In this document: piece after piece, positions 17,988-39,346 of the stretch
Numbering within the stretch: the first letter of the stretch is position 1
Layout: each line of letters opens with the position of its first letter
Assembly (NCBI GenBank): GCA_964017235.1
Contig: OZ024928.1
Span: 83,509,566-83,573,565, forward strand
Direction of reading: 5' to 3'
DNA length: 64,000 bases
Source of the DNA: Sabellastarte sp. h YS-2021
Taxonomy: Eukaryota > Annelida > Polychaeta > Sabellida > Sabellidae
Notes under the pieces: model-generated
The model's database searches: none
Told to the model about the DNA's origin: nothing
What the model saw: only the letters and a program-made list of their open reading frames with translations
Translations under genes and position numbers: made by a program

Positions 17988-19157
17988 TTACAGTACAGCC
18001 AATGTGGTGAACTGATCAGTGTTTTTCTGGTTAAATACATTGTCTTTGTTTCTGCCACCATTCCTGACTTTCTTAAAGTATCTTCCGATGGTTTTGAGCT
18101 TCTTTTTCAACACTTTCTTCCTGTCTTTGCTGATTTTGGGCTGATTTACCGCTGATTTACACATGGGTTTTTCCATAAAGTCTGTCATGTCTGAAGTCAT
18201 TGTGACACCCAGACTTCTGTCACAGGTAGAATTCAGAGTAGTTTCCTTCATAGAAGATGCAGCACTGCTGAAAGATCTGGTGGAATGAACTGAGCCATAG
18301 AAAGCACTATATTTTGATGTGTTGCTAGACCAAAATGTGGTGGATATTACTGTGTTGATGCCATTGTTTTGGTGACCATTACTTATTGGATCATTGGTCC
18401 TTTGAGAATGACAGCAATGAGAGTCTTGAATTTCAAAGATACTGGAAAGCTCCTGCTCTAAGACAGCTGCCACTGAACAAAGGTCACTGTTGTTTAGACA
18501 ATTATTGCAGGATTGGATGTGGTTCACAAACTCATTCTGCTTGAAGGATCTGTTGGTCAGGTCATTCTGACTGTATGAAAGCTCACATGTGGTACAGCTG
18601 GCATCCATGGTACTGTCATTCCACTCAGGTTCAAGTTCAGATCTCTCCACACTACAGGTGAGTGATCTACCAAGATTGCTGAGTGTACCATTATGAGTTT
18701 TTCTGATACTTTGTGGAGAAGATTCTTGTCCAATACAAGGAGGTCTGGGACCCAAAGGGCATTTATCAGAAGAAAAGCTTGGCACTTCACAATATTTGGT
18801 GTATTTAGTATAATCTAAGTCTGCAGTTTTAGTTAAGTTACTACAACATTCTTCAGTGGGACTGGCTTTTCCACAGCTTGATGATACAGATCCTGTTGAT
18901 CCAGTCTCCAGCCCAGAATCTGTGCTCCCTCTGCAGCTAGAGTTGTAAAATTTTCTGTCCATTGTGTTGCTGTTGAAAGTGGCAAAGCAAACTGAACTTT
19001 CACTGCTGCTACTGATGAAACTGTCATCAAAAGAAGAGTAGCTCTCTGAAGGGTTTGTGGAATGCAAGCGCCTGTGGATGATTGGCATTTTCTGTTGAGA
19101 AAAGTTTGCCTGGTTCTTCAGATATCTCTTATGGTAAGAAGTACACTGAGAAGACAT
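17988..19157 (-). CDS. gene A1: intronless Cys/His-cluster protein of an unrecognised family
   Basis: Encodes 389 residues in one exon; function unknown. In order: Ser/Thr-rich region with acidic patches (1-100), PSFS (126-129), PLGPRPPCIG (134-143), a Cys/His cluster with C188, C191, H213, C217, C220 and C227 suggestive of metal binding, a helix-like LEQELSSIFEI (233-243), TTFWS (273-277), TDFMEKP (325-331), a highly basic helix-like segment RKKVLKKKLKTIGRYFKKVR (346-365), and the end FTTLAVL. The start is supported by identity with gene A2 and by a stop in the 5' leader in this frame. There is no signal peptide or membrane segment. The basic stretch could serve as a nuclear signal or bind acidic partners; this is inference. 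A TATA box lies ~100 bp upstream. It is nearly identical to A2 and clearly related to B1 and B2. Confidence 0.88.
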   Translation of the reverse strand: MSSQCTSYHKRYLKNQANFSQQKMPIIHRRLHSTNPSESYSSFDDSFISSSSESSVCFATFNSNTMDRKFYNSSCRGSTDSGLETGSTGSVSSSCGKASPTEECCSNLTKTADLDYTKYTKYCEVPSFSSDKCPLGPRPPCIGQESSPQSIRKTHNGTLSNLGRSLTCSVERSELEPEWNDSTMDASCTTCELSYSQNDLTNRSFKQNEFVNHIQSCNNCLNNSDLCSVAAVLEQELSSIFEIQDSHCCHSQRTNDPISNGHQNNGINTVISTTFWSSNTSKYSAFYGSVHSTRSFSSAASSMKETTLNSTCDRSLGVTMTSDMTDFMEKPMCKSAVNQPKISKDRKKVLKKKLKTIGRYFKKVRNGGRNKDNVFNQKNTDQFTTLAVL

Positions 19158-19251
19158 GATGCTAGTTCTTCACTGTGTTTTCCAATGTACTGTATTCTGT
19201 ATACAAGTTGTTGTACAACTGTTTAATGAATCTCACTGGTAAGGTCTGTCC

Positions 19252-19258
19252 TTATATA
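19252..19258 (-). promoter_or_regulatory. TATA box of gene A1
   Basis: TATATAA on the minus strand, 101 bp before the ATG. Sequence around it is nearly identical to the A2 promoter. Expected transcription start is about 30 bp downstream. The A1 leader carries 16 extra bases directly before GCATCATG compared with A2. Confidence 0.7.
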
Positions 19259-19717
19259 ACCTCAACAGACCATCATCAACAGATAGGAGAAATAATCAAG
19301 GTGATAAACACACAGCAGGATCTACAAAAAAATGACAAACAGTAATTTTACATGAAGTGATAGCTTTATGTATTTAAATACATGTGGCTAAAACTATTAA
19401 AAACCAATTGTAGTCATACCAGGGGGTAAAGTAGTTTGACAAGCCAAGATCTGCCCAGATATTAAATTGCAATTGAGGGTTGATCCTAATCAGTTCACCA
19501 GTGGAACATATAGTGCAGTCTGGCTGAATGGGATTCACTTTGAAATAATCTAGTGATTTTTGTGTATAATATAATAACTGACAAACTATGGACTATTTAC
19601 TGCAATATTATTGTACTGAACTGACATCCTTTGTCAGGATTAGCTTAACAAATTCTCTGGGGACATAAGGATATGTAGAGTATGTTTATTGAAGTGCCAA
19701 AAAATTGTCATAAACAT

Positions 19718-20723
19718 GTTCCAATGGAATCCGGGGAAAAATGCCTAGTGGAAAAAAGCCTGGTGGAAAAAATGGCAATTCAAAGAAAGCCTGGTGGAAA
19801 GAAAGCCTGGTCTGTTTTGGGAAAAAATGGAAAAAAGTTTGGGGGTCTTTTTTTAGGTTTGATACATATTAAGATTAATGATGAAGTAAAATTAACATGT
19901 TATTTCAACCATTTGATTTCAAAATGTGTTTTGTAAATATAATTTATTTTTCTAGTACAAATGATTTTTATCAATGCAGAATACAGAATTATGTAAAATT
20001 TATTATGCTTTTTAGAGGTTGTTTCAAAATTATGTCACTAAAGGAAATAAAAGTTTTCTAAACATGCAATTATGGTTGGATTCCCAGGGAAATGCTGGAT
20101 GTGTATGTCACTAATTGCAAGTAGGTACTACCATTTAAGAGCCAATCCTGTGTAGATACAATGGTCCATTTGAAGTGTGCTCTGGTGTTCTTTTATCACC
20201 TTACAATTTAGGGTTTCTGGATTTTCAATTAAAGTTTCTTAACCAGACTAACAGTGGAACACCTTTTGGTGGGATGTATAAATTAATAACTGCAAATATG
20301 CACTAGTGGAGATAAGTCTATTGAAGACTTTTTGCAGGGAATTGGCCATTGTATAAGACTTTGTTTGAAAATGAAAAAAAAATGTAATATGATTTTTCTT
20401 TTCTTCACATCTACAAAGTGCTGATTTAACATTTGTGTATTTTGTGTTTCATTTTCAATCAAATGTATAAAAGGTTGTTTGTAGAGCATGCATATAGTGT
20501 TACTTTGTATTTCTTGTTTTAATCAAATGATTTGGAATAAATTAATGTTTTAGTTCTACTTTATTATTATTTTTGATATGTACAGAAAAAAAAGAAACAC
20601 CAGGCTTTTTTCCATGTTTTTCTTTACACACCAGGCTTTCTTTCCACCAGGCTTTTCTTCCACCAGGCTTTCCTTCCACCATCATTTTTCCACCAGGCTT
20701 TTTTTCTGCGCACCGTTCCAATG
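19718..20723. mobile_element. non-autonomous DNA transposon in the A1 upstream flank
   Basis: The element is 19727-20714 (988 bp) between two copies of GTTCCAATG (19718-19726 and 20715-20723), a 9-bp target duplication. The paralogous position in unit 2 (about 24465-24485) reads straight through GTTCTAATTCATCCATTGCAC, the empty site. The ends are imperfect inverted repeats dominated by subterminal AGCCTGGTGGAAA copies, direct on the left and inverted on the right. The short open frame at 19682-19936 is a by-product. Superfamily is uncertain (MULE by target length, hAT-like by subterminal repeats). Confidence 0.85.
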
Positions 20724-20729
20724 CATCGA

Positions 20730-22560
20730 TTGCACAATTTGAATGATCCTTAATTCATTCTGCAAGTTCCATTTCAATTGTTCAAAAATAATTTAGGAAT
20801 AAATTCACTGAACTGCTTTTTTTTCTTCATATCTTTTCAATATAAAAATGATTAACAGAATTTTTGTTGCTTACCTTAAATACTGTTATATCTGCTGAGT
20901 GGCTCCAATTATTACCTTTACAGCATGCAACAAAATAAACAACTTCAGTTTATATACAGTAGTATTTATTTTTTTTAAAAATAGTTCACAAATAACTGAT
21001 TGAGCATTATAAACATGATCACAATTAATATTTCAGTGTTTCTGAAGGGAATATTTATTAAACTAAATATGATTCCTTGTTATTACTGTCTTAACAATAC
21101 CTTCAATTATTCAAATTTAACATTCAATATACTTTAAAAAGTGTATATTTACAATTACAAACTCTTTCCATTCACTGACCAACCAATCGCATCATTAAAT
21201 TGTGAACGATTAACTGAATGATTATATGTTTCCGTCAAACTCAAGCCAGATATTTTTTTACCTTGGACCACCATTATTTGAAGCCAAAGGAAATATTGTA
21301 AAAACACAATTACTTTCATGTGTACCGGACAAGACAGTACAATTAAATCTTGCTATTTGTACTGCCCTTGTCATTCTATTTAGTTTGGTATATGTTAATA
21401 TTGCTAAAAATTGACCAAAATATGAGATAACTAAAATATGTTTATTGAAATTCAATTGATAACACTGTAAATAGCCAATCTGAGAGGCACTCAGCACTGC
21501 ACCAGTTAAATAATATAGACAGTTGCTCCAGTTATTAAAATTTAGAAAAATTTACAGTCATTTTGTTACATTTTGAAAAACCACTGATACGTTATCTGCA
21601 TAACAGTTGGAATATAAGACAGAATATAATCAGCAAATAGTATTATCTTGCAGTAAAATTATATACTTATCAATCTGTTTAACATAATTATTTCATTGCA
21701 ACCAGATCAGGTTGTGCTTTAATTGTTATTATCTTTTTATGTTTCTCTTTGTACACAGATATCTGAGTGAAAAACACATACATTTGTACCTAATACTTAT
21801 ATGCTAAAAGTCACTTATAAGCCCTATGGGGCTGGGCAAACATTGTTAATTTCAATTTCTGTTATTGTAAATTTGTATTTGCATGTGACTATAATAAATA
21901 AAATAATATATAATATACTCCACCCAACAATAAAATTTCCACTTTCTGAACCAATAAATTTACTCCTTTCACAAATCAAAAGGCTAACTCATCAATAGCT
22001 CATCTCATATTTTTCTACATTTTAGTCCAATATTTACACAAGGAGACAAAAGAGGTCTAAAGATTATAATCCACAATTTCAACACCTCTTTTGATAGATT
22101 TCTCTTCTATGCTATTACAAAGGGGAGGATCAGCCAGATTCAGTAAATACAAAGACAAATATCCACACAGATTGGACTGTGCTCACTCTTTGTTTTGAAT
22201 TGGACATAAATCACTCACTAATTAGGTATTTCACTCAGAAGAATGGAGACAAAAGAGTTTGCCCACCACACAAATATTTTATTGAAAACCCCATGACAAT
22301 TGTCCAGAGCAAGATAGTTTTTGCTGTCATTGAGGTAGGTCATACCTAAATGTGTGATATTCACCAACAAAGGCTTTTTAACTGGAAGTCATTAGGACAA
22401 TAATCCACACAGTGTTACTCATAATACACTGTTTATTGCTGCTCAAAGAGTTTGTATCTATCATTCCCTTCATTTGAGAAACTCTCCTGTTACATATTCT
22501 GAGTGAAGTGACACAATGCTGTGTGCTTTCAAACTTTTATTCACACAAGATGTATATTAT
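20730..22560. other. 5' flank of duplication unit 1
   Basis: AT-rich and non-coding. Blocks match 24480-24560, 25280-25350, 25540-25680 and 25665-26160 in unit 2, so this is old duplicated flank interrupted by insertions. Confidence 0.55.
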
Positions 22561-22762
22561 GAATCAACATATACAACTTTATACAGTTTAAATAAGTGAT
22601 AGCAATATAACAGGTGTATCATATCTACAATATACAGTGTACACTGAGTTAATTTTCATGCACATAATACTGATGCTGGCTTCATTATTTACTTTCAAAT
22701 AATCTTTAACAATAAATAAATACATTAGCACAAAATGTAGTATTCTGTAACAATACAAAGAA

Positions 22763-23932
22763 TTACAGTACAGCCAATGTGGTGAACTGATCAGTGTTTT
22801 TCTGGTTAAATACATTGTCTTTGTTTCTGCCACCATTCCTGACTTTCTGAAAGTATCTTCCGATGGTTTTGAGCTTCTTTTTCAACACTTTCTTCCTGTC
22901 TTTGCTGATTTTGGGCTGATTTACCGCTGATTTACACATGGGTTTTTCCATAAAGTCTGTCATGTCTGAAGTCATTGTGAGACCCAGACTTCTGTCACAG
23001 GTAGAATTCAGAGTAGTCTCCTTTATAGAAGATGCAGCACTGCTGAAAGATCTGGTGGAATGAACTGAGCCATAGATAGCACTATATTTTGATGTGTTGC
23101 TAGACCAAAATGTGGTGGATATTACTGTGTTGATGCCATTGTTTTGGTGACCATTACTTATTGGATCATTGGTCCTTTGAGAATGACAGCAATGAGAGTC
23201 TTGAATTTCAAAGATACTGGAAAGCTCCTGCTCTAAGACAGCTGCCACTGAACAAAGGTCACTATTGTTTAGACAATTATTGCAGGACTGGATGTGGTTC
23301 ACAAACTCATTCTGCTTGAAGGATCTGTTGGTCAGGTCATTCTGACTGTATGAAAGCTCACATGTGGTACAGCTGGCATCCATGGTACTGTCATTCCACT
23401 CAGGATCAAGTTCAGATCTCTCCACACAACAGGTGAGTGATCTACCAAGATTGCTGAGTGTACCATTATGAGTTTTTCTGATACTTTGTGGAGAGGATTC
23501 TTGTCCAATACAAGGAGGTCTGGGACCCAAAGGGCATTTATCAGAAGAAAAACTTGGCACTTCACAACATTTGGTGTATTTAGTATAATCTAAGTCTGCA
23601 GTTTTAGTTAAGTTACTACAACATTCTTCAGTGGGACTGGCTTTTCCACAGCTTGATGATACAGATCCTGTTGATCCAGTCTCCAGCCCAGAATCTGTGC
23701 TCCCTCTGCAGCTAGAGTTGTAAAATTTTCTGTCCATTGTGTTGCTGTTGAAAGTGGCAAAGCAAACTGAACTTTCACTGCTGCTACTGATGAAACTGTC
23801 ATCAAAAGAAGAGTAGCTCTCTGAAGGGTTTGTGGAATGCAAGCGCCTGTGGATGATTGGCATTTTCTGTTGAGAAAAGTTTGCCTGGTTCCTCAGATAT
23901 CTCTTATGGTAGGAAGTACCCTGAGAAGACAT
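22763..23932 (-). CDS. gene A2: intronless paralogue of A1
   Basis: Encodes 389 residues in one exon and differs from A1 at roughly a dozen positions. The Cys/His cluster, PLGPRPPCIG, TDFMEKP and the C-terminal FTTLAVL are all intact. A longer open frame begins 21 codons upstream (ATG at 23995). I prefer the ATG at 23932: it matches the A1 start, and the upstream ATG falls at or before the transcription start expected from the TATA box at 24011-24017, while in A1 the same upstream frame hits a stop. The basic C-terminal segment reads RKKVLKKKLKTIGRYFQKVR, with one Lys to Gln change relative to A1. About 125 bp of 3' UTR is also shared with A1. Function unknown. Confidence 0.88.
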   Translation of the reverse strand: MSSQGTSYHKRYLRNQANFSQQKMPIIHRRLHSTNPSESYSSFDDSFISSSSESSVCFATFNSNTMDRKFYNSSCRGSTDSGLETGSTGSVSSSCGKASPTEECCSNLTKTADLDYTKYTKCCEVPSFSSDKCPLGPRPPCIGQESSPQSIRKTHNGTLSNLGRSLTCCVERSELDPEWNDSTMDASCTTCELSYSQNDLTNRSFKQNEFVNHIQSCNNCLNNSDLCSVAAVLEQELSSIFEIQDSHCCHSQRTNDPISNGHQNNGINTVISTTFWSSNTSKYSAIYGSVHSTRSFSSAASSIKETTLNSTCDRSLGLTMTSDMTDFMEKPMCKSAVNQPKISKDRKKVLKKKLKTIGRYFQKVRNGGRNKDNVFNQKNTDQFTTLAVL

Positions 23933-24010
23933 GATGCTTTCCAATGTACTGTATTCTGTATACAAGTTGTTGTACAACTGTTTAATGAATCTCACTGGTA
24001 AGGTCTGTCC

Positions 24011-24017
24011 TTATATA
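24011..24017 (-). promoter_or_regulatory. TATA box of gene A2
   Basis: TATATAA on the minus strand, 85 bp before the chosen ATG, in a promoter nearly identical to that of A1. Confidence 0.7.
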
Positions 24018-24589
24018 ACCTCAACAGACCATCATCAACAGATAGGAGAAATAATCAAGGTGATAAACACACAGCAGGATCTGCAAAAAATGACAAACAG
24101 TAATTTACATGAAGTGATAGCTTTATGTATTTAAATACATGTGGCTAAAACTATTAATAACCAATTATAGTCATACCAGGGGGTAAAGTAGTTTGACAAG
24201 CCAAGATCTGCCCAGATATTAAATTGCAATTGAGGGTTGATCCTAATCAGTTCACCAGTGAAACATATAGTGCAGTCTGCTTGAATGGGATTCACTTTGC
24301 AATAATCCAGTGATATATATATATAATATAATAACTGACAAACTATGGACTATTTACTGCAATATTATTGTTCTGAACTGACATCCTTTGTCAGGATTAG
24401 CTCAACAAATACATAAGGATATGTAGAGTATGTTTATTGAAGTGCCAAAAAATTGTCATAAACATGTTCTAATTCATCCATTGCACAATTTAAATGGTCC
24501 TTAATTCATTCTACAGGTTTCATTTTAATTTTGGCAAAATTTTATTTTCATGAATTTGTTGGACCTGAATTTTTAGGGATACAGACAAA

Positions 24590-25112
24590 AAGTATTTAAA
24601 CAAAAAGTACTAACCTAAAGAACAGAGACATAAAGACAGAAAGAATTGCATACCAGAACAAAAAGTATTTTATATCTCTACTTTAAACATTTATTATTAT
24701 ATACCTGTAGATAAATATGTTTGTATGAATACACATCTTGTTATTTAGTACATTTAGAACATACATTATTGTAACTTATAATTCTTATGTATACTATTCT
24801 TTTAAGCTAAATGTACTTAGGAAACTTAAATTAATAATCAATTTTTCTTTGATACTAAAGACAAGAAGATAGGGAAGCCACATTGCATAAGGAAGCCACA
24901 TTGCATGAAGTTCTGAGTGGTCATGTTAATTTCAAAGCCTAATGTAGGATTGTTTATATGCAAGTGATTATAATATATTTAATAAATCAAACTAAAAATA
25001 CAGAACTATAAAGATACATAATATGTTTAATTTGGAACAAAAACATAAAATTATTAAGAAATACTTTTTGTCCTGATAGTGCAATACTTTATATCAAAAT
25101 ACTTTTTGACCT
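24590..25112. mobile_element. candidate non-autonomous element in unit 2
   Basis: Present in duplication unit 2 but not unit 1. The left side has CAGACAAAAAGTATTTAAACAAAAAGTA; the right side has ATACTTTTTGTCC and AATACTTTTTGACCTG in inverted orientation. These give inverted ends CAG(GT)ACAAAAAGTATT with subterminal repeats, the same design as the A1 insertion. No clear target duplication was found, so boundaries are approximate. Confidence 0.45.
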
Positions 25113-25119
25113 GCAATCG

Positions 25120-27130
25120 CATTTTAAACAATGGTTCCTTAAACAGTGTTGAAGGAAAACCAATTGACTTAACCTTATAAATTAAAAAAAAGATTCATAA
25201 CAATAATCATGATCAATAGATAAAATTTGTGTTAAAAGCTTTTTCAGAAATATTATTTATAAGAAATATGCCTCAATAATAATTCTAGAATCCTGCATAT
25301 ATCTTTTAAAAATACAAAAAAATGATTACATAATGTATTTACTTACCTTCATTTATATATATTGCTATTTCTGTTCACTATCCACAATTTCTACTTCAAT
25401 ATTATGCAATACAGCAAATAAATTATCTACTCAATATTTGAATTACTTCCCAAATAACACTGATCAATTTATATCACCTTCAATATTTCAGTTTTTCTAT
25501 AAAAATATTTCTTTGTTACTAATGCCTAACAGTGTCTTTACTTTTACAAATTTATTATTTAATATTCCTAGTAAAGTGTATATTTATGAAGACTCAAAAT
25601 TCTTTCAGCACAGTGATCAACCAGTTTCATCGACAAATTTAAATTTAAATTAGGTTATTTTGACTTGCTGATTATATATACTCATCCAACAACAAAACCT
25701 GTACTTTCTAAGCCAATAAAATTACTCAGTTCACAAATGAAAAGACAGATTCTTATCATCAATAGCCCATCTCATACTTTTCTATATTTTAGTCAAATAT
25801 TTGCACAAGGAGACAAAAGAGGTCTGAAGATTATAATCCACAATTTCAACACCTCTTTTGATAGATTTCTCATCTAGCTATTACAAAAGGGAGGATCAAC
25901 CAGATTCAGTAAACATAAAGATAAATATCCACACAGATAGGACTCTGCTCACCCTTTGTTTTGAATTGGCCTTAAATCACTCATTAATTAAGTCTCTCAT
26001 CAGAAGTATGGGGACAAAAGAGTTTGTTTAACATACAAATATTTTTATTGAAAGCAGTGTGGCTATTCACTGAAGCAAACTTGTTGTTGTCTGGTCTTCT
26101 GGAAGGTCATAGCCAATGGTGTGATACTCATTAATTTGCTGTTATTGTTAAGACCCCTAACCTAAAGTTTTTACTGCAGATTACACATGGGAAGGTTTGA
26201 GTTAAATCATTGGTGTTCAAATTAAATGGCAATTAAAAAGCCTGTTGAAAACATTATTTTTGATTACATTTCAAGATAAGGCTTGACTAGTTGTGTCCAT
26301 GTTTAAAACCCAGAGTTAGAAAAAATTTTCACAAATCTAGATCACTTTTTTCTTGCTGGTAAAATTATGGATATTTCAAGAGTAAAACATGTGACTCTTG
26401 CTTTTTTTTAACTGCATAAATGTTTGATATCAACTTTTTCTTCTTTTTCTTGAAGTTTTTATTTACATGATAAGAGATCAAATAAATGATATGGGAGGGG
26501 ATGGCCTGGAATGTCTTTCTGTGTGTGTGTCTCCACCTGTTCATAAAGTTGTTTGCTTTTTGCTGTTAACATAAAAATTTTATAATTCTGGGGTTTCACC
26601 CTTCCCCAAAGAATTGAGGAAAAATCCTTGTGGGAAAAATGTCTTGTCTGTTTTGAGGAAATGGTAACATTGTTTCCAAATTTTCATTCATTTGAAGTAA
26701 GTTTTTGTAAAACATGTTTTATCTATGTATCACAGTATTTGTGTGATAGTTGAGTATAAGTGGTTAAAATAAACAAAGTCTGAGATGAACCTATAGCTTT
26801 TGAAATATTGTCTTTTACTATACACTTTCTTTACATTGAGTATGAGTATTGTCCATCATTCATGGTTTTCCTCTATGATACAGTGATTTTCCCCCTTTAC
26901 ATTTTAGTAGATCTCATAATTTTTTTTTATGTTTTTAATGTATATCTGATTCTTTGACAAAGAATAAATATTTCTTTCATATTGTTCTATCTTGTAATAA
27001 TTTCTCTAGGATTACAGTGATTCTCCAGTGATTTGTCAACCCCTCTTGAAATTGGTTCCGGGGCTTTTGTCCTAGTAGCCACATTTTTCTGAGTTATTGT
27101 CCTCCAGGGTTTGTCTATTTACCGAATAAA
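25120..27130. other. flank of duplication unit 2 and non-coding sequence
   Basis: To about 26160 this is the 5' flank homologous to unit 1. Beyond that it is AT-rich sequence in which I recognise nothing. Confidence 0.4.
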
Positions 27131-27149
27131 GGAGGGGGGGACAACCAGT

Positions 27150-27179
27150 GTGTGTGTGTGTGTGGGGGGGGGGGGGGGA
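27150..27179 (+). repeat. simple repeat (TG)n followed by a G run
   Basis: TGTGTGTGTGTGTG then an uninterrupted run of 13 or more G. A likely site of polymerase slippage and assembly error. Confidence 0.85.
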
Positions 27180-27234
27180 GTCACAATCAATCCATTGTCC
27201 CTTGTGGGAGTGGAACCCCAGCCCACAGGTGAGA

Positions 27235-29522: not shown

Positions 29523-29589
29523 GGGCAACAACATCGAGATTTGGGAAAATCTTTGGAACAACTTCAGTTGTATGAAGCATACAGAATCT

Positions 29590-30410: not shown

Positions 30411-30635
30411 AAGCCCCATTTCCATATACGCGTGATCCGGCATGCGGTATACGGCATGCGATATGCGGCTATTTTAACTTTGCAATAAAAATGTAAGAGG
30501 TGTTTCTATATATGCGTGTACGGTATGCAGATCCGGTACTTATACTTTATGTAGAACTCATCAGGCTTCTAGCACTTTGAATAGCCGCATACCGCATGCC
30601 GTATACCGCATCACGCGTATATGGAAAAGGGGCTT
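30411..30635. mobile_element. 225-bp MITE with GC-rich palindromic TIRs
   Basis: Left AAGCCCCATTTCCATATACGCGTGATCCGGCATGCGGTATACGGCATGCG is matched in inverted orientation by the right end. The TIR of about 55 bp is built of small self-complementary words (CGCG, GCATGC, GTATAC). A third related stretch lies in the middle (TATGCGTGTACGGTATGCAGATCCGG). The target duplication is not clear. Confidence 0.75.
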
Positions 30636-31140
30636 TAGAGGCTACATAAAATGCTTAGTTTCATTGAAAAATGTCTGGACTGCATTAAATATGGTTTTGT
30701 TTTGTTCAAAATTAAGATCAATATCCCCAAACAATAATATTTCAGTGGACAAAGGAGGAAGATCTGAAAGTTATTCATCATAATTTGTCTAGGTTTGTCA
30801 TGGAGAACACAATGAAAAAGAAAATGAGTACTATTTTCGATATCCATGCCACATTCACAATTACAGTCATTAGTTACATGCAAATACTTTGAAAGGTGTT
30901 CATTTAGTGGGCTACACTTCATTCGCATCCGGGCATGGATTGTATTCCGAAAGCGATCGCCAATGTTAAAAAGTTCTTTTCAGAATTTGTATACTTTTTC
31001 TTTGCCTTGGCCCTGCTGTTTTTGCAATTTATATTTGAAGGATGACAATGTGGTAGAAGATTTCAAGGAATGATCCAGCTCATTCCATAGCTTTATTCCA
31101 ATTGGAATAAACGAATCTCTGTGTGTCAATCGTATCATTC
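30635..31140 (-). pseudogene. 3' end of a non-LTR retrotransposon (LINE) ORF2, broken
   Basis: On the minus strand the frame reads as the C-terminal tail of a LINE reverse-transcriptase polyprotein. First DSFIPIGIKLWNEL, then FKYKL, then the Cys/His motif CNCECGMDIENSTHFLFHC followed by an Arg shortly after. One in-frame TGA (near 30985) breaks it, and everything upstream (RT and endonuclease) is missing, so it is a 5'-truncated dead copy. The stop codon directly adjoins the right end of the MITE at 30411-30635. Family level (for example Jockey/CR1-like) is not decided from this tail. Confidence 0.8.
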
Positions 31141-31149
31141 ATACTAACA

Positions 31150-31890
31150 CATTCCATGACAAAATTGGTTAAAAATTTTAAAAAAAATTAGAATAAAACC
31201 TACGACCAGTTGTATACGCCAATACAATTTTTTTAACGAAGCACAATTGTATACACAGACACAAGTTATTTAACATTACATGGGCTCATAATGCGCACAT
31301 ATAGGGTGTAGGTTTTCTCAAAACTCATACAGTAACAAATACAGCACATATTTAAAAAATCACGGTGCTATATCGTAACGTACATAACTTCATGTTTATT
31401 TTCATGAATTTTACTCTCACCTCTGAAAACATTGTCCACTTGTGAGGTGGAATGCAATGAAGTTCTTCACAGAACCCAACTGCCGCCTGACCAAAGTCCA
31501 AATCCTTTGATCCAGTGGTCATGTGACTTAATTTTGTGATTTCCATTTTCCTAAAATTGTCTATAAAAGTTAGTGTATGTATTATATTGCTTCATCCCCT
31601 CAACTGCCTTTCGTGATAGGAGCTCAAACATAAATTACTCAAGTCGTGCCTGGGTGTCTACCACAATAAAATGAATTATTCAGTGCAAACGGGCACTGTG
31701 GCTGCAACCAAACATTTACATGCATGTGCTGCCACGGTAATAGAATATTTTACTTATTAACAAAGGGTTAAAATATTGCAGAAAAGTATTGAGATATAAC
31801 AATGATGAGAATTCCAGCGACCATTGTAATTTGTAGCTTAATATATTTATCCATCTTACTGAGAATCATGGTTACCTAATTTTGTATACT
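31150..31890. other. non-coding, nothing recognised
   Basis: AT-rich, without supported exons or repeat families. Confidence 0.35.
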
Positions 31891-31899
31891 GTAACTAAT

Positions 31900-32480
31900 C
31901 AGCTGGTAGAAATAGCAGCTTTCCTACAGAGTTTTTAGTTTATGAAACTAAGATGTTATTTTAAAGCTTCAGTCTTATGTAAAATTAATAGCAATTTGAG
32001 TAAAAACATGCTTCATTTTGGATACTCTTGGGACTCAGCTAGTAGAAATATCTTTTATAGATTTGCCATCAAAGTGGCATATCTAAGTGAAATGTCAAAA
32101 CAATCAGCACTTTTCCAATTGAGGTAAACCAATGTCAATAATTCAAAAACTAAGACTTTATTTTTGGTCTTCAGTCTTAAACATTTAATTGCAATTGGAC
32201 TTTTAAACCTTAATGCTTCATTTTGGATACTCTGAAGTAACTCAACCAGTAGAAATATTTTGTTTAAGATTTTCCAATAGTTGGCCTGTCCCTATTTCTG
32301 TTTTCATAGAGAAAAATCAAAACACTCAACTTTCCTCTGTTTTATTCAGTCTGAAAACCTAAAATCTCATTTTGATTTGCCAGCTACAAAAAGCTAATTG
32401 CAATTGGATTAAAACAAATCAAGGTCAAGTGTGGCTAAAATGCCAAATAAACCCATTATACTCCTGCTGTGACTTAATCT
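31900..32480 (+). promoter_or_regulatory. three ~205-bp direct-repeat modules upstream of B1
   Basis: Diverged units marked by TTCATTTTGGATACTCT, CAGTAGAAATATTTTGT and TTAATTGCAATTGGA recur about every 200-210 bp (for example 32187 and 32394). Three related units occur in the inverted arm upstream of B2 (about 39660-40130). Their position just ahead of both promoters suggests cis-regulatory modules; this is inference. Confidence 0.5.
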
Positions 32481-32607
32481 CATAAATAAAAATATTGGTA
32501 CAAAGTGGAGGCAATTGATGTGTGGCTTTTTGTCTATGATGAAAGGAATGGTTGACTCTTTCTCACACTGTTGTTACACCAGATTGTCTAGACTGGGCAT
32601 ACTCTCC

Positions 32608-32617
32608 TATATATAAA
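32608..32617 (+). promoter_or_regulatory. TATA box of gene B1
   Basis: TATATATAAA, 97 bp before the ATG. About 300 bp of upstream sequence, including CACCAGATTGTCTAGACTGG, is almost identical in the B2 promoter. Confidence 0.75.
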
Positions 32618-32693
32618 AGACTGAGTTTTGTACTCTATCATAAACATTTTCATTCTACATCTAATTACAAGTTCAGATAAGTAGTCACATCTT

Positions 32694-32702
32694 ATGTGTT
32701 AA
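32694..32702 (+). promoter_or_regulatory. minimal upstream ORF (Met-Cys-stop) before B1
   Basis: ATGTGTTAA ends two bases before the main ATG and is exactly conserved before B2. A two-codon uORF this close to the start could reduce or regulate translation by termination-reinitiation; this is inference. Confidence 0.45.
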
Positions 32703-32704
32703 AT

Positions 32705-33883
32705 ATGAACAAGTTTTTATCTTCACCAAGTCTTGCAGTGCCAAACAATTCCATGATGGAGGAGTCCTTTCTATCTGATGACTTTTCAGATGAATCTCTG
32801 ATGTCCAGCTCTGTGACCAAATATAGTAACCAGGATTCAAGAAACACACGTAAAATTATGGAGCCAGAGACACCTTATGCAAGGCACATTATGGACAGTT
32901 ACCATAGCCATCAGACTGAAATTCCTAGTTTTAGTAAATACTCAGTCAATGCACAGAGCAAATGTCTGAAAAAAGCTACCAAGTCTCAACAGTCTGTCAG
33001 GCCATCTTTTCTGGAAGGCAGATATGACACATATCACAGCTCCACTCAACTCAATAACTCTATCAATTCCAGTAATTCCAGCCTTGATGCCACTCCACTT
33101 GGAAAGAGACCAGCCTGTATTGGAAAGGAGGCCACACCAGTAGGCAAGAACCTCTTCAAGACTCTCTCCAGTTTTGGACAGTCTCCAAGTTGTGGTCTTA
33201 ACTTCACTGAGTTGGACTCTGGATGGGACAACTCTGAACTGGATGCCAGCTGTTCTACTTGTGGAATAACCAGCACTTCCTATCAGGATGAGGAAGATGT
33301 TTACTATGATCACAACAATGACTCAAAGAGTTTACCTCAAGTGAGATTTATGAGGCACCTCCGACTCTGTAGAATGTGTAACACTGGAGAACTCTGCTCC
33401 AAAGCACTCTTACTGGAGAGAGAATTGCCCAGTTTCTTTGAGATTGGATGCGAGACACAGATAGAGTCTTCACTAACACGTAATTCAACTGCATGCAGTA
33501 CACTGTCCAGTGAAGTTTCACATTTTTCAAGGTCAGAAGAGAAGAGAGTTAAGTCTACGGTATTCTGGAGTGAATCAGTCAATACAACCACTTCTTTATC
33601 TACATCATTTGTATCAACTTGTGAAGACCAAGGTATCACAAACTCACCATGCTACACAGAAATTGAAGAAAGCTTTGCTGTCACTGTTGCTTCTGATAAG
33701 ACAGACTTTATGGAGAAACCAATCACCAAAGTACCAGTAACTGGTCATAACATTCCTCTGAAAAGAAAATCCCATTTAAAAAGAAAGCTCAAGAAAATAG
33801 GGAAATATCTACATAGAGTTAAAAATTGTGATGTACCAGCAACTGAAATAAAGGGGCAATTTACCACATTAGCTTTCTTGTAG
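32705..33883 (+). CDS. gene B1: intronless Cys/His-cluster protein, same family as A1/A2
   Basis: Encodes 392 residues in one exon; function unknown. The open frame extends a few codons further 5', but the first ATG in frame is at 32705. In order: Ser-rich acidic start (SFLSDDFSDESLMSSS, 21-36), PSFS (74-77), PLGKRPACIG (131-140), Cys/His cluster C183, C186, H218, C222, C225, C231, LERELPSFFEI (237-247), STVFWS (284-289), TDFMEKP (333-339), a basic segment RKSHLKRKLKKIGKYLHRVK (354-373), and the terminal FTTLAFL. These motifs occur in the same order as in A1/A2 although overall identity between the A and B types is low. There is no signal peptide or membrane segment. Candidate poly(A) signals are three overlapping AATAAA at 34098-34111. 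Confidence 0.9.
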   Translation: MNKFLSSPSLAVPNNSMMEESFLSDDFSDESLMSSSVTKYSNQDSRNTRKIMEPETPYARHIMDSYHSHQTEIPSFSKYSVNAQSKCLKKATKSQQSVRPSFLEGRYDTYHSSTQLNNSINSSNSSLDATPLGKRPACIGKEATPVGKNLFKTLSSFGQSPSCGLNFTELDSGWDNSELDASCSTCGITSTSYQDEEDVYYDHNNDSKSLPQVRFMRHLRLCRMCNTGELCSKALLLERELPSFFEIGCETQIESSLTRNSTACSTLSSEVSHFSRSEEKRVKSTVFWSESVNTTTSLSTSFVSTCEDQGITNSPCYTEIEESFAVTVASDKTDFMEKPITKVPVTGHNIPLKRKSHLKRKLKKIGKYLHRVKNCDVPATEIKGQFTTLAFL

Positions 33884-34097
33884 TCAAACGTTTGCTTTAT
33901 ACATTTGCATTGGTAGGCAGCATGTAGAGTTTTAAAGATAATGTACATATTTTGTATCATACAATGTAAATAACCTTAAATTATTTTTAATTTATATTAT
34001 GTATTAGTGTAAAAGTATTTTATATTATTTCTGAAAATCCTTTGTGCTTACTTGTTATCATCTGTTGGATCTGTTATAACTTATTACACATTCACAA

Positions 34098-34111
34098 AAT
34101 AAATAAATAAA
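34098..34111 (+). terminator. poly(A) signals of B1
   Basis: Three overlapping AATAAA hexamers about 215-230 bp after the stop codon. Confidence 0.5.
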
Positions 34112-34119
34112 AACTAACA

Positions 34120-34660
34120 ATGACTATTTTTTGGTATTGAGAAGTAACTAGCAAATACATGTACTATAACCCAAGCTTTCCCTTTCCCTTATAGGGCTTT
34201 GAGAACTAACATAAAAAGAATTAACATAAAATGTCAAAAAGTAAAGCTATGCTGAGGTCACCTTGAATAATAATTTTTTTCAAAAGTTTGTTCAGTTGTG
34301 TCCTCAATTTATATCTTTACTCGAGTAAATGAATGGTTTATACTTTGGAATCTTTGAATGTGCAAATGACAGCCATTTTTGTTAAATGTTTTTTCTGTCT
34401 TATATAGTTTTACAATAACTCTGACTTGTAATTGTAAATGAACAGCAGAAATGCCGTAGCCTAGTGACAGACAGAACTTGACCCACAAACCACATTCTAG
34501 TGTTTCTTATTTACTTATTTGTTTGCATATCTACCTCTTATTAGTGTTACATGACATTATTACATCAGATCAATGTTGGATAAAATTTGTAGTATGTTTC
34601 CCATTTTAATTCAAATAAGAAATGATTAAATTGTGGTGGCATCATCATTTCACTTTATTT
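34120..34660. other. non-coding, nothing recognised
   Basis: AT-rich spacer between B1 and the R1 element. Confidence 0.35.
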
Positions 34661-34668
34661 TATTGTTA

Positions 34669-35699
34669 TTATCTCCTGCCTGCGGCTGTAGGTCGTGGTC
34701 GGGAGATTATAAAATGCCTTCCGTACATGTGTGTGTACATCCATCCATCCATTCGTCACATTTTTACATAAACCTTAATATCTCATTCATTTATAAAGAT
34801 ATCTTCACCAAACTTGCAGGAAATGTTTATGGCTATGAAAAACTGTCTGCAAAATTTGGTCTCATTTTGAAAAACAAAATGGCCACCATAGCTAATTGCT
34901 TGAAAATCATAAAGGCACTTTAAATCTTGAAATATTCCAGCTTAGCTAGCTTTATCAAATTTGCACAAAAGCTATATGGATAGAAAAGCTAGCCTGATAG
35001 TAATTTTGGCCTAGTTCAAAAAACAAAATGGCCGCTATATCACATGTTTAATGTCAAACGGGGTTATCCTATTAAAAAGGCCTTATCTCTCCCCAAATAT
35101 TGCTCCTAGAGGTTTGGAATGTAAAAACAACTTGTAGGAATTCATGGCCTGGGAATCTTTTCTAGGTTAAATGGGGTCGTCACACTAAAACGTCCTTATT
35201 TCTCCCTTATTACTGGTGCTATGGCTTCAGAATGTAAAGACAGAGCATAAAAAAGTCCTGCCCTGCAAATGTTTTGCCTGAGAACAATTTTGGCCTTATT
35301 TTGAAAAACAAAATGGCTGCCATAGCCAATTATTTTAAAATCATTAAGATGCTCTAAAACTTTTGCAGCTAGGTTCATCAAATTTGCACAAAATTTATAT
35401 GGCTAGGAAAGTTAGCCTGATAGTAATTTACCCTCTTTTTGAAAACAAAATGCCGTCATATCACACATTTAATGTTAAATGGGATTATCCTATTAAAGCA
35501 GCCTGATATCTCCCTTGTCGTTGCTAGTATGGGTTCCAAATGTGAAAACAACTTACAGGAAGTCAAAGCCTGAGACTCTTTTCCAATTGTTGACTTTTAC
35601 CTTTGACCCCTTCTTCAATGTCAAGTGGGGTTATCTTACTACAAAGGCTTTATATCTCCTTTAGTTCTCCATTATTACTGATTCTAAGGCGGGAGATAA
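34669..35699 (+). repeat. dispersed repeat R1, most complete copy
   Basis: 1031 bp starting TTATCTCCTGCCTGCGG and ending GGCGGGAGATAA, so the ends form a short imperfect inverted repeat (TTATCTCCYGCC). The interior carries several AAAATGG(C/A)C modules and GACCTTTGACCCC-type modules. No protein is encoded and no clear target duplication is seen. It probably represents a non-autonomous element. Confidence 0.7.
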
Positions 35700-35709
35700 C
35701 TGCGGTGGT

Positions 35710-36290
35710 AGTGGCCTTGTTTTTCCTGCACCTTTGACAGCCTGTTCTGAAAGACTCCTTATCTTTGTACTTTTCATTTCTTCTGTATCATATTGTGTCG
35801 AGTGCTGTTTCATGAAGCTGTGTGATATGGACATCTCTGATGCTATTTGTTTCAATTGCCTTGGGAAGGCAGGTTACTGTTCTAAAATGGACGTGTATTG
35901 GGGTTCTGGAATATGAATCCGTATAGATAAATTACAAAATCATTGTACATGTACTACAGTGTATTTTAATTGGACCGGTCTAGGTGTTGCCTCATTGCAC
36001 TACAGTGTATTTTAATTTGGTGTTGCCAAGGTCTATTATATTGTTTCAAGTTGATATACAGATCACCAAATTTTAGTCTAAAACCACAAGAATGGGTGAG
36101 ACCCTAGATGATAAAATATAACATAACAACAAACATTGATATACTTTCACCCACCTGACAGGTGTTTGTCACTTGCATTTTAGAACAATATAGAAACCTC
36201 TTTATAATTAGCCTTCTTTGTACAGGTGTACAAAACTGTAAAAATAACTTTTTCATTTGATTCAATATTGCTTATCCTTGATAGTTTTGA
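35710..36290. other. non-coding spacer
   Basis: Nothing recognised apart from a short local duplication (CTACAGTGTATTTTAATT at about 35954 and 36001). Confidence 0.35.
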
Positions 36291-36297
36291 AAGAGGG

Positions 36298-36526
36298 TAG
36301 AGTAAGAAATCTAAAATTCGCCACATATCCGAAATTTGCCACATGTGAAAATACTAATAAAATAAATGAATTGTGGTGAGATTTGTTGACTGTATAGTAA
36401 ATTAAGGCTTTTTGAACTGAAAAATACCAATTTTTGGACAAAAACATCATTTTCTTCATAAAATTAACTAAGGTTTTAGAGGTGGCGAATTTTAGATTCC
36501 TGGTGAATTTTAGATTTCTTACTCTA
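36298..36526. mobile_element. TA-flanked MITE, copy 2
   Basis: Element 36300-36524 with inverted ends GAGTAAGAAATCTAAAATTCGCC, flanked by TA on each side. It is the partner of the copy at 13047-13273. Non-coding. Confidence 0.75.
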
Positions 36527-36529
36527 ATA

Positions 36530-37970
36530 AATTTGGTTGGGTGGGAATAGTAATAGAAACATTAGTGGCAAAAAATTGATGAGGATCATCTAGTGTGCTG
36601 GAATCCAAAAAAGGGACAGTCCCAAACCGAGCAAAAGTTGTAACCCAGCAAGCGCCTGGCTATTCTATGTAGAGTCACAAATCTATGGTGCTTTAAGAAC
36701 ATAAACATGATTAAATTGAATAAAATGTCCTGTTGAGGAGCAGACAATTAGGCTACATGAAATTACATATATGTACAAAAAGATGTGTTCTAGAATTGTT
36801 TTTTTTTTAAATACTCAATGTAATTTTTGTGGTGAAAAGTGTTCAATTTATCCACTAATTAGTGTTTTCTCTAGGTTTTTGTTTCCCCATCTTTTTAAAA
36901 CTCTAAAACTTTTGAGTTATTTTCAATATGCCCAATTCAAGGAATCCATAGAAATTTTGCAGAGGGCCACACATAAAATAAATTAACCTATATTTATTAA
37001 TATTTTATAAAAGAAATGCTAAATAGACAATTTTTAAAATAGTGTTTTGACAATATCAAACATTTTGGCTCAAAACATAAGAACCCATGTTATCTAAACA
37101 GGGTGAGGAAAAATTTGTATTTGCAAAGATTTGTAAAATAAAAGGACAGTTGAGAATATATGAAGCAAAACTTTAAAGTGAAAAGGAGTATTAAAATTAA
37201 ATATTTAATAAATATTAAATAATATTAGGGGTTATGATGGCCAAAGATGTACTCCATAAGTGTAAATGAGGGTGCTAGTAGGAAACCATGGCTAAGTAAC
37301 AAATTAACTTGTGTAAGGTTCAAATTTGCACTATATCATTTTCAAACATGTTCACAAATGTTTGATATGCATAAAACACTCATACACGTTAGGTGTTATA
37401 AGCTAACCAAACTGTCAAAGCTGTATGCTGAAGAAAAAGCTCATATATGTAAGAGTACTACTACTATATATGTAAACTGAAAATTTATCATGTAAAATGA
37501 AAGTTTTGCTGAATCATAAAGAAACTTTAAACAAGGCTGCAAATTGGTATTCAGCTTACTCTGACACCTCTTTAAGGAAGAAACTCAAATCATATTTGGT
37601 CTCCGAGGCCTTTGTACCATATTTTGTTATTCAGCATATGGCTCTGGTAATGACCATTGCTATGCCCCATGGACTGATGAATTTTCAATAATCCTTTTGA
37701 TTGTTTGACTGTAGACTCTCCTTAAATGCAGAGATTAAGCATTATAAAATTCCAGAATAGAATAGAATTAACCAGTCACATTTGATAGTTAGAAGCCCTA
37801 ATTCACTAAATTCAGTTTGTACATTTTGAACATCAACATGTTGTTGCATACTGATTGTTCAACCTGGACATTGTTGATTCACCCAAATTATTTCACCTGA
37901 AAAGACAGCCTCAAAAATACCCTTTTTGAGAGTGTGTAGCACATGTTTCATAAAACAATACACTTGTTTC
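36530..37970. other. non-coding spacer between B1 and B2
   Basis: AT-rich. Near 36585-36640 a short stretch resembles 4060-4125 (CTGGAATCCAAAAA...AGCAAAAGTTGTAAC), a repeat fragment. Nothing else is recognised. Confidence 0.35.
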
Positions 37971-38165
37971 TGTTTTTTATATATTTTTATTTTCTTTTAC
38001 AAGTAATAACAAATTATAACAAATACAATAACAAACATAACACATGAGTACTTTAAATTATTTCCCAATAATATAATGTGTCTATGTTTTTTACAATGCA
38101 TGGTATTTAATACTTTCAATGGTAAGCATAATTATTGTAAATACATAGAAATAACAAAATTTCAA

Positions 38166-39344
38166 CTACAAGAAAGCTAATGTGGTAAATTGCCCCTTTA
38201 TTTCAGTTGCTGGTACATCACAAGTTTTAACTTTATGTAGATATTTCCCTATTTTCTTGAGCTTTCTTTTTAAATGGGATTTTCTTTTCAGTGGAATGTT
38301 ATGACCAGTTACTGGTACTTTGGTGATTGGTTTCTCCATAAAGTCTGTCTTATCAGAAGCAACAGTGACGGCAATGCTTGCTTCAATTTCTGTGTAGCAT
38401 GGTGAGTTTGTGATACCTTGGTCTTCACAAGTTGATACAAATGATGTAGATGAAGAAGTGGTTGCATTGACTGATTCACTCCAAAATACCGTAGACTTAA
38501 CTCTCTTCTCTTCTGACCTTGAAAAATGTGAAACTTCACTGGACAGTGTACTGCATGCAGTTGAATTACGTGTTAGCGAAGACTCCATCTGTGTCTCGCA
38601 TCCAATCTCAAAGAAACTGGGCAATTCTCTCTCCAGTAAGAGTGCTTTGGAGCAGAGTTCTCCAGTGTTACACATTCTACAGAGTCGGAGGTGCCTCATA
38701 AATTTCACTTGGGGTAAACTCTTTGAGTCATTGTTGTGATCATAGTAAATATCTTCCTCATCCTGATAGGAAGTGCTGGTTATTCCACAAGTAGAACAGC
38801 TGGCATCCAGTTCTGAGTTGTCCCATCCAGAGTCCAACTCAGTGAAGTTAAGACCACAGTTTGGAGACTGTCCAAAACTGGACAGAGTCTTGAAGAGGTT
38901 CTTGCCTATTGGTGTGGCCTCCTTTCCAATACAGGCTGGTCTCTTTCCAAGTGGAGTGGCATCAAGGCTGGAATTGCTGGAATTGATAGAGTTATTGAGT
39001 TGAGTGGAGCTGTGATATGTGTCATATCTGCCTTCCAGAAAAGATGGCCTGACAGACTGTTGAGACTTGGTAGCTTTTTTCAGACATTTGCTCTGTGCAT
39101 TGACTGAGTATTTACTAAAACTAGGAATATCAGTCTGATGGATATGGTAACTGTCCATAACGTGCCTTGCATAAGGTGTCTCTGGCTCCATAATCTTAGG
39201 TATGTTTCTTGATTCCTGGTTACTGTACTTGGTCACAGCGGTGGACATCAGAGATTCATCTGAAAAGTCATCAGATAGAAAGGACTGCTCCATCATAGAA
39301 TTGTTTGGCACTGCAAGACTTGGTGAAGATAAAAACTTGTTCAT
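38166..39344 (-). CDS. gene B2: intronless inverted paralogue of B1
   Basis: Encodes 392 residues from the ATG at 39344, equivalent to the B1 start. It differs from B1 at roughly 20 positions. All family motifs are kept: PSFS, PLGKRPACIG, the six-member Cys/His cluster, LERELPSFFEI, STVFWS, TDFMEKP, the basic segment and the terminal FTTLAFL. It points towards B1, so the two are tail to tail. Homology with B1 runs through the promoter and coding region but stops at or within a few bases of the stop codon; the 3' UTRs are unrelated. A possible poly(A) signal (AATAAA on the minus strand) is at 37986-37991. Function unknown. Confidence 0.9.
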   Translation of the reverse strand: MNKFLSSPSLAVPNNSMMEQSFLSDDFSDESLMSTAVTKYSNQESRNIPKIMEPETPYARHVMDSYHIHQTDIPSFSKYSVNAQSKCLKKATKSQQSVRPSFLEGRYDTYHSSTQLNNSINSSNSSLDATPLGKRPACIGKEATPIGKNLFKTLSSFGQSPNCGLNFTELDSGWDNSELDASCSTCGITSTSYQDEEDIYYDHNNDSKSLPQVKFMRHLRLCRMCNTGELCSKALLLERELPSFFEIGCETQMESSLTRNSTACSTLSSEVSHFSRSEEKRVKSTVFWSESVNATTSSSTSFVSTCEDQGITNSPCYTEIEASIAVTVASDKTDFMEKPITKVPVTGHNIPLKRKSHLKRKLKKIGKYLHKVKTCDVPATEIKGQFTTLAFL

Positions 39345-39346
39345 AT

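Follow-up and report, generated by a model that had tools for sequence, protein, structure and literature searches.

A stretch of 64 kb of an annelid genome (the window) carries four compact genes of two types, A and B, and we asked whether these form a small local family or belong to something larger, what kind of proteins they encode and whether they are likely to be switched on together.

Four genes in the window and about thirty in the genome

At a minimum length of 200 aa with an ATG start, four open reading frames are the complete list for the window. Genes A1 (17988..19157, minus strand) and A2 (22763..23932, minus strand) are single coding exons of 389 aa that are 98% identical, and B1 (32705..33883, plus strand) and B2 (38166..39344, minus strand) are single coding exons of 392 aa that are 95% identical. 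The A genes lie in tandem and the B genes convergently (tail to tail), just as the preliminary description had placed them. Its statement that the two types differ greatly yet remain collinear was also borne out, with B1 and B2 both 38% identical to A1 and the shared blocks in the same order. What did not survive was the idea of a four-gene family. A search with the C-terminal consensus gave 30 matches in the same genome, corresponding to at least 29 open copies and one broken copy on eight contigs. The open frames of the 29 copies span 278-566 aa, and the thirtieth, at C2:164.148 Mb, is interrupted by a stop. Judged by sequence, A1, A2, B1 and B2 account for only a few of the about 30 compact genes in a dispersed family, the other members of which carry L-numbers (L013, L039 etc.) as labels. 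The proposed expansion within the genome with retention of reading frames thus holds for 29 of 30 copies. The transposon insertions reported nearby are represented by a transposon-like insert of 989 bp with an 8-bp flanking repeat upstream of A1, which A2 lacks. The genes had further been called intronless, and this stands for A and B. Several other members have a splice-acceptor-like sequence (recognised by a sequence rule only) just 5' of the large coding exon, so the family as a whole is apparently not wholly intronless.

A conserved tail, a Cys/His module and distant likenesses

The hallmarks of the family are an RPPCIGxExSP motif and a C-terminal box that contains a basic amphipathic segment and mostly ends in TLAVL. 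In A1 this box (17991..18206, minus strand) reads SDxTDFMEKP..., followed by the basic amphipathic segment and the end FTTLAVL; its counterparts lie at 22766..22981 (A2, minus strand), 33683..33880 (B1, plus strand, with the end FTTLAFL) and 38169..38366 (B2, minus strand). After exclusion of seven near-copies (A2, B2, L015, L041, L068, L076 and L055), 22 non-redundant members remained, of which 19 had the C-terminal end pattern (mean of 0.0 in shuffles), 13 had RPxCIGxE (0.0 in shuffles) and 9 had a W motif (0.3 in shuffles). The amphipathic character of the tail was assessed as the hydrophobic moment of the best 18-residue window within about the last 75 residues, a choice of window that in itself favours amphipathicity. 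It reached 0.71 in A1 and 0.70 in B1, values equalled by 5 and 1 of 1000 shuffles, respectively; this does not extend to all members, since for L036, L042 and L074 as many as 164, 89 and 90 of 1000 shuffles were as high. The structure prediction that had been recommended for these proteins (AlphaFold, four rows in two runs) did model the basic C-terminal segment as a long helix, at very low confidence (mean pLDDT 31.1 and 30.9), and because of this, disorder and helix are only suggested. A simple hydropathy scan found a transmembrane-like segment in none of the 29 family proteins (highest Kyte-Doolittle 19-residue mean 0.95), in agreement with what had been described for the four. We also looked for signals of regulated turnover, for which there is no support because the relevant patterns were not enriched over shuffles in the 22 non-redundant members: the beta-TrCP phosphodegron DSGx2-4[ST] occurred in 5 of 22 versus 3.2 in shuffles, and KEN box, RxxL and SP/TP patterns were no more frequent than expected. 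LxxIxE likewise showed no enrichment.

Database searches agreed with the earlier impression that no described domain is recognisable. In a Pfam scan of 19 members no score reached the cut-off wherever a cut-off was compared (best E 0.0025; 12 families weakly matched), NCBIfam gave no accepted match for the members scanned, PDB searches by sequence and by profile returned either nothing or weak matches, and prokaryote relatives were absent at the search threshold. Protein phosphatase inhibitor 2 (PF04979) was weakly matched only by B1 (residues 42-104, E=0.017, 16.3 bits) and B2 (residues 44-104, E=0.076, 14.2 bits), in both cases below the cut-off of 25, and the other 17 of the 19 members showed no match at E 1. 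Such a gene family was not described among the matches listed from the open-access literature, which is no proof of absence. The single large coding exons and the scatter over eight contigs might suggest that the family stems from a DNA virus or a transposon and was domesticated in the worm. We regard such an origin as very improbable, as two scans of viral contigs with the module and C-terminal profiles found no relative at the search threshold, the best PHROGs match was unnamed (E 0.0064), and possible 5' introns in several members as well as TATA promoters speak against it.

A and B share one further feature, a Cys/His module that is confined to a single clade of nine members (support 93/85; separated from the rest by one branch in 92% of 200 bootstrap trees). 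In the A1 form it reads W..DxSCxTC..F..HxxxCxxCx6C..A..LE..LSSxFE, with 16 invariant columns over the nine aligned members. From the alignment, with coordinates derived from residue numbers, it lies at 18429..18623 (minus strand) in A1, 23204..23398 (minus strand) in A2, 33224..33445 (plus strand) in B1, where it takes the form HxxxCxxCx5C, and 38604..38825 (minus strand) in B2. After H-x3-C-x2-C, the spacing is x5-C in six of the nine members and x6-C in three (A1, A2 and L016). The ligand spacing of the His(Cys)3 region of NuoG/NDUFS1 (PF10588) is H-x3-C-x2-C-x5-C, and the NuoG pieces that we compared show the same. This raises the question whether the module could be a genuine His(Cys)3 [4Fe-4S] domain inherited from the complex I subunit NuoG/NDUFS1 or from a hydrogenase, which would make the A/B clade iron-sulphur redox or sensor proteins. 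The likeness is found in sister paralogues of A and B, where the spacing HxxxCxxCx5C follows a helix-like stretch: L014 matched NuoG 8e9g over a stretch of 57 residues that takes in ASCTT (E=0.019), the NCBIfam NuoG model gave E=0.00056 (L014) and 0.0012 (L015), and seven of nine matches in a PDB search with the module profile were chains of NuoG, of the 75-kDa subunit of complex I or of NiFe hydrogenase. Moreover, the score to 8e9g was reached by only 0, 0, 8 and 29 of 1000 shuffles with C and H fixed for L013, L014, L016 and L019, respectively. A1 and B1 themselves, however, did no better than such shuffles, either to 8e9g (159 of 1000 for A1 and 482 of 1000 for B1) or to the other two chains, L016 did no better for 8iuf (211 of 1000), and the NuoG pieces for this test had been picked as best database matches. 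The curated cut-offs compared were missed, with 13.5 bits against 27 for PF10588 in L013 (unlisted for the other five members scanned) and 18 and 16.9 against 802 for NuoG in L014 and L015, and the E-values of the module-profile PDB search were all 0.19 or worse. Descent of the module from this iron-sulphur domain seems improbable to us.

A palindrome upstream of dispersed members

The claim that the four genes are TATA-driven is in line with TATA boxes 85-120 nt before all four ATGs: TATATAA at 19252..19258 (minus strand, -101) in A1, and boxes at 24011..24017 (minus strand, -85) in A2, 32608..32614 (plus strand, -97) in B1 and 39458..39464 (minus strand, -120) in B2. Several members other than A and B also have a TATA box near the ATG. 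Further upstream lies the palindrome ATTGCAAT, at 19466..19473 (-316) in A1, 24223..24230 (-298) in A2, 32397..32404 (-308) in B1 and 39667..39674 (-330) in B2, with a second site in B1 (32188..32195, -517) and in B2 (39866..39873, -529). Its presence in dispersed members had been overlooked in the preliminary description. To count it, six of the 29 genes were left out as near-copies (A2, B2, L015, L041, L068 and L076), and two of the 23 remaining upstream regions had only 12 and 36 nt before held-out stretches were added. In a ranking of 8-mers that had to occur in at least 6 genes (the control took the 400 most frequent of those in 5 genes or more), ATTGCAAT came first, in 10 of 23 genes versus 0.61 expected; in 2000 first-order Markov resamplings the number of genes averaged 0.88 and never exceeded 5. 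We counted 14 sites in 14.0 kb of upstream sequence, none in 26.6 kb of coding sequence and a single one in 16.1 kb of downstream sequence. The held-out test on five unseen upstream stretches yielded 8 sites in 10,486 nt, in three of five genes, compared with a single site in eight control loci that total 30,144 nt. Overall, with the discovery set included, 15 of 23 genes carried 26 sites between them versus 1.2 expected; the sequences against which site counts were set are family coding, family downstream and the eight control loci. Where a member may have a 5' intron, what we call upstream may be intron instead. The palindrome was absent from eight of the 23 regions as read (L014, L018, L020, L030, L036, L042, L054 and L081), of which one belongs to the module clade and two were among the held-out regions.

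Known promoter elements were not enriched in the upstream regions of the family. Su(H) had 2 sites versus 3.9 expected, the full heat-shock element had none (core ratio 1.51, P=0.059), and SRE, CRE, AP-1, NF-kB, octamer, CARE and the full C/EBP site, searched as consensus strings, showed no enrichment; ATTGCAAT as a promoter element had no match in the open-access literature searched.

Taken with the protein features, this would fit a dispersed, co-regulated family of about 30 genes that encode mostly disordered intracellular adaptors or competitive inhibitors, an account, with its inferred role, to which we give somewhat less than an even chance. One ATTGCAAT-binding transcription factor would turn on much of the family together, and TATA promoters and short genes would allow fast and high expression. 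Within the cell, the basic amphipathic segment could tether the protein to a membrane surface or to nucleic acid, the free TLAVL end could dock in a groove of a partner, and the module of the A/B clade might coordinate metal, either zinc or an iron-sulphur cluster, and so provide a second binding face. A known multigene set of comparable build is the Bearded family of insects, small single-exon genes that inhibit or bind Neuralized and have promoters with Su(H) sites. Like the worm proteins, those of the Bearded / E(spl) m-alpha family have short motifs, an amphipathic helix and a C-terminal end that is conserved, and their genes form a set that Notch controls in common (PMC1310631). Their helix is in the N-terminal part, whereas that of the worm family is C-terminal (in low-confidence models), and the worm genes lack enrichment of Su(H)-type sites. 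The bolder version of our account, namely an undescribed annelid (perhaps spiralian) regulatory class that is mostly one regulon under a dedicated ATTGCAAT-binding factor, with a metal module in one clade, the TLAVL-type end as a new docking signal in most members and perhaps expression in a burst in the early embryo, in the germline or under stress, is doubtful. About 30 dispersed genes, most with a common protein tail and upstream element, would be a regulon-like arrangement in an animal group of which few regulons have been studied, and its present interest is testability rather than a result. The palindrome offers a way to the factor and then to its stage or signal, and pull-down and metal-binding work could start from the TLAVL end and the Cys/His module. 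Relatives in other annelids would point to a shared unknown regulator, their absence to a large recent invention.

Selection and the likeness of neighbouring copies

Open frames in all four genes had been taken to imply selection. For A and B alone this is weak evidence, because a neutral simulation leaves no stop with a chance of 0.60 (A) and 0.31 (B) and the nonsynonymous counts are compatible with neutrality (P=0.16 for A1/A2, P=0.07 for B1/B2); the dN/dS comparison advised for these pairs thus does not exclude it. Selection is better shown by other pairs, two of which reject neutrality in the same simulations (P=0.006 and 0.031), by dN/dS (NG86) of 0.16 and 0.19 in two further pairs, and by the invariant columns that persist across divergent paralogues. 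The copies might still be recent, nearly neutral products of transposon-driven duplication with no coordinated function, as the A and B counts, the broken copy and the insert adjoining A1 would allow. With 29 of 30 copies open, neutrality rejected in two pairs, motifs retained at 22-38% overall identity and the palindrome common to members in the held-out test, we consider this quite improbable.

The extent of homology between neighbours gave a further clue. A1 matches A2 mainly over 17838..19725 (minus strand; A2 side 22607-24473), and B1 matches B2 over 31915..33884 (plus strand; B2 side 38165-40142), ending 1 nt past the stop codon. In the inverted pair L039/L041 the homology ends exactly at the stop. 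Both B1/B2 and L039/L041 (dS about 0.05) remain 97-98% alike as far as the stop codon and are followed by unrelated sequence, which suggests gene conversion in these two pairs; exchange between neighbouring copies would then keep some coding exons alike. It is not general, because the neighbours in the inverted pair L015/L016 are not each other's closest kin in the tree. Alternatively, duplication break points may have fallen at the stop codon by chance. The comparison is based on a single genome without population data, and elsewhere the homology ends at varying distances past the stop (+150 nt in A, +51 in L074/L076, +64 in L067/L068 and +39 in L014/L015); with dS of 0.47 in L040/L043 and 0.34 in L054/L055, blastn may simply miss unconstrained flanks. 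Two low-dS pairs that end at most 1 nt from the stop speak against chance break points, which we consider a real but lesser possibility. Conversion also has a precedent for coding-only homogenisation in the inducible hsp70 clusters of Diptera, which are intronless, include some inverted pairs and have homogenised coding sequences with diverged 3' UTRs (PMC3071340), much like the alike coding and diverged 3' ends seen here. Within the reach of the family searches, the worm genes are unrelated to hsp70 in function and sequence, and they differ in their dispersal over eight contigs and in lacking heat-shock element enrichment. Of the open copies that are neighbours at no more than 12 kb, with A2-B1 set aside, seven of eight pairs were inverted (P=0.035), or seven of nine with the broken copy included (P=0.09), which is no more than suggestive of a preference for inverted neighbours in the family.

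A dispersed gene family with a conserved C-terminal tail

An ORF scan of the 64-kb window (G000:C2:83509566-83573565) returned exactly four ATG frames of at least 200 aa, the genes A1, A2, B1, and B2. The A genes lie in tandem and are 98% identical, the B genes are convergent and 95% identical. Between A and B identity is 38%, and the conserved blocks are collinear. The cluster arrangement proposed in the preliminary description was thereby borne out. Its view of the genes as TATA-driven also agreed with our data, since a TATA box was found 85-120 nt 5' of the ATG in all four, and the same holds for the claimed lack of a transmembrane segment, as a simple hydropathy scan of 29 family proteins gave no membrane-like segment. 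What had to be abandoned was the idea of a four-gene family. Searching the species' own genome (1,785,957,881 bases in 647 contigs) revealed paralogues of B1 and A1 on other chromosomes, and the consensus of the C-terminal box, the conserved tail of these proteins, had at least 30 matches (a lower bound), 29 of them in open frames that span 278-566 aa and the last interrupted by a stop. The open copies are spread over contigs C1 (5), C2 (7), C3 (3), C4 (5), C5 (3), C8 (1), C11 (4), and C21 (1). The published genome description (PMC13234546) gives an assembly of 1,786.39 Mb in 723 scaffolds, with the five largest chromosomes at 193.65, 190.50, 189.25, 181.91, and 155.04 Mb and a mitochondrion of 15.35 kb.

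Three hallmarks were apparent in an alignment of 19 members: RPPCIGxExSP, a Cys/His module with an HxxxCxxC knuckle, and SDxSxFMEKPLC...KKKSLxxKLKKIGK...TLAVL at the extreme C-terminus. The module consensus had at least 10 matches in the genome (again a lower bound), corresponding to nine module members, A and B included, and one partial copy. On the family tree, in which 10 of the 26 inner branches are drawn open, these nine form one group (support 93/85; 92% of 200 bootstrap trees), within which A branches before B provided that the root lies outside. All but one of the nine terminate in TLAVL or something close to it; the exception is L013, which ends in QKLENKQ and may be truncated or mis-ended.

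The coding part seen is in each case one large exon. For A and B the description as intronless stood, with no splice acceptor near their starts by a simple rule (pyrimidine run plus AG). However, an acceptor-like site lies directly 5' of the large exon in other members (e.g. L020, L036, L039, L041, L054, L055, and L081), and although this rule also fires within some coding sequences and is a pointer only, the family as a whole is, judged from sequence, probably not intronless.

Among 22 non-redundant proteins, several motifs occurred far above their frequency in shuffled sequences: SDxSxFM (21/22), the C-terminal end (19/22), RPxCIGxE (13/22), and a W motif (9/22). Degron, KEN, RxxL, and SP/TP patterns were not above shuffles in this set. 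Many members, though not all, show a high hydrophobic moment in their basic C-terminal segment. AlphaFold, run twice on the four proteins of the window, reached a mean pLDDT of 31; the best-modelled part was the C-terminal helix (pLDDT 53-62 in blocks of ten), and the HxxxCxxC knuckle is surrounded by two weaker ones. From these models we infer proteins that would be mostly disordered, with a helical tail. Separately, the N-terminal parts of several members contain additional short motifs that recur between subfamilies at differing positions, among them GPxxST (6 of the 22 members versus 1.2 in shuffles) and [ST]SVW[ST]. Such mobility suggests that these may be shuffled docking motifs.

In some members the module may resemble part of NuoG. 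Two module members, L014 and L015, matched the NCBIfam NuoG model (E=0.00056 and E=0.0012, with scores far below the NuoG cut-off), and a 57-residue stretch of L014 aligned with 8e9g NuoG (E=0.019). The module profile had nine PDB matches, each with E of at least 0.19; seven of them were NuoG, the 75-kDa subunit of complex I, or a subunit of NiFe hydrogenase. When sequences were shuffled with Cys and His fixed, the 8e9g score was reached by 0 (L013), 0 (L014), 8 (L016), and 29 (L019) of 1000 shuffles, indicating similarity beyond the cysteines, with the proviso that the NuoG pieces were picked as best matches, which favours high scores. No similarity beyond such shuffles was found for A1 and B1 against 8e9g (159 and 482 of 1000) or for L016 against 8iuf (211 of 1000). 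We regard the NuoG-type resemblance as a lead and do not claim membership in that domain family.

A palindrome in most of the upstream regions

Over 23 non-redundant upstream regions the top 8-mer was the palindrome ATTGCAAT, present in 10 genes versus 0.61 expected; the maximum in 2000 Markov resamplings was 5 genes. In 100 resampled sets the most extreme 8-mer reached P 7e-7, short of the 6e-8 of ATTGCAAT. Its sites are concentrated upstream, with 14 in 13,981 nt, compared with 0 in 26,628 nt of coding and 1 in 16,100 nt of downstream sequence. In a held-out test on five new upstream stretches we found 8 sites in 10,486 nt (3/5 genes), whereas eight control loci (30,144 nt) yielded a single site. 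Overall, discovery set included, there are 26 sites in 15 of 23 genes, with 1.2 expected. Twenty patterns were tested, and clear enrichment was confined to three of them: the TATA box, ATTGCAAT, and a longer version of ATTGCAAT. By eye, AATTGCAATT occurs in several promoters. The module genes L014 and L015, which carry repeated CCTGAGCAG/CCTGAGTAGG-like units 5' of the TATA box, have no ATTGCAAT within 700 nt upstream and may be under different control.

Selection and probable homogenisation of gene pairs

Frame retention in the four window genes had been taken to imply selection. By NG86, dN/dS was 0.38 for A1/A2 and 0.41 for B1/B2, and in pairs elsewhere in the genome 0.18 (L039/L041), 0.19 (L067/L068), 0.37 (L074/L076), 0.34 (L054/L055), 0.40 (L040/L043), and 0.16 (L014/L015); maximum-likelihood values were higher in all eight pairs (0.21-0.54), yet all remained below 1. 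Four pairs were also simulated under neutrality. The number of nonsynonymous changes fell significantly below the simulated values in L039/L041 (P=0.006) and L074/L076 (P=0.031), but in A1/A2 (P=0.16) and B1/B2 (P=0.07) it did not, so neutrality was not rejected for the latter two. The selection argument is therefore weak from A and B alone, whereas it holds at the family level.

Coding divergence was 1.28% for A1/A2 and 2.80% for B1/B2, with no indel, while the 500 nt upstream differed by 3.7% and 8.7% and the 500 nt downstream by 40% and 48%, respectively. BLAST homology ended 1 nt past the stop in B1/B2, 0 nt in L039/L041 and L054/L055, and 3 nt in L040/L043, versus 39-150 nt in L014/L015, L074/L076, L067/L068, and A1/A2. 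L039 and L041 are 98.2% identical over 923 nt, with homology starting ∼17 nt 5' of the predicted acceptor. Because dS is near 0.05 and unrelated sequence begins right past the stop, which is unexpected under plain duplication, gene conversion, confined to the stretch where homology remains, is the likely explanation for B1/B2 and L039/L041; in older pairs the flanks may simply have been lost to blastn. A published parallel is hsp70 of soldier flies, where homogenisation is stronger in the coding parts than in the 3' UTRs (PMC3071340).

Possible working of the family and further observations

We envisage that a common factor acting on ATTGCAAT would switch these compact TATA genes on jointly, and that the proteins would remain intracellular. 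The basic amphipathic tail could then serve as an anchor, the free TLAVL end would dock a partner, and the A/B clade would possess a metal-stabilised second face. The likeliest role would be that of an adaptor or competitive inhibitor. Of these points the family itself, the palindrome, and the conserved tail are established by sequence, and the remainder is a proposal.

Upstream of A1, and absent from A2, lies a 989-bp insert (window 19726-20714) with GCCTGGTGGAAA-type inverted repeats recognised by eye. It is flanked by gttccaat (19718-19725 and 20715-20722), an 8-bp repeat that points to a putative hAT-type element. An open frame at window 59123-59482 contains a DINDNSPRF stretch that appears cadherin-like by eye; a Pfam search of this frame (E up to 0.1) gave no match, perhaps because the frame covers only a fragment of an exon. 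Finally, the mitochondrial contig (G000:C647, 15,345 bp; loci L084 and L085) carries genes on both strands, with cox1 (by Pfam) and cox2 and cox3 (by eye from ORFs) on the plus strand and nad4, nad4L, and nad5 (by eye from ORFs) on the minus strand, an arrangement that is, to our knowledge, unusual in annelids.
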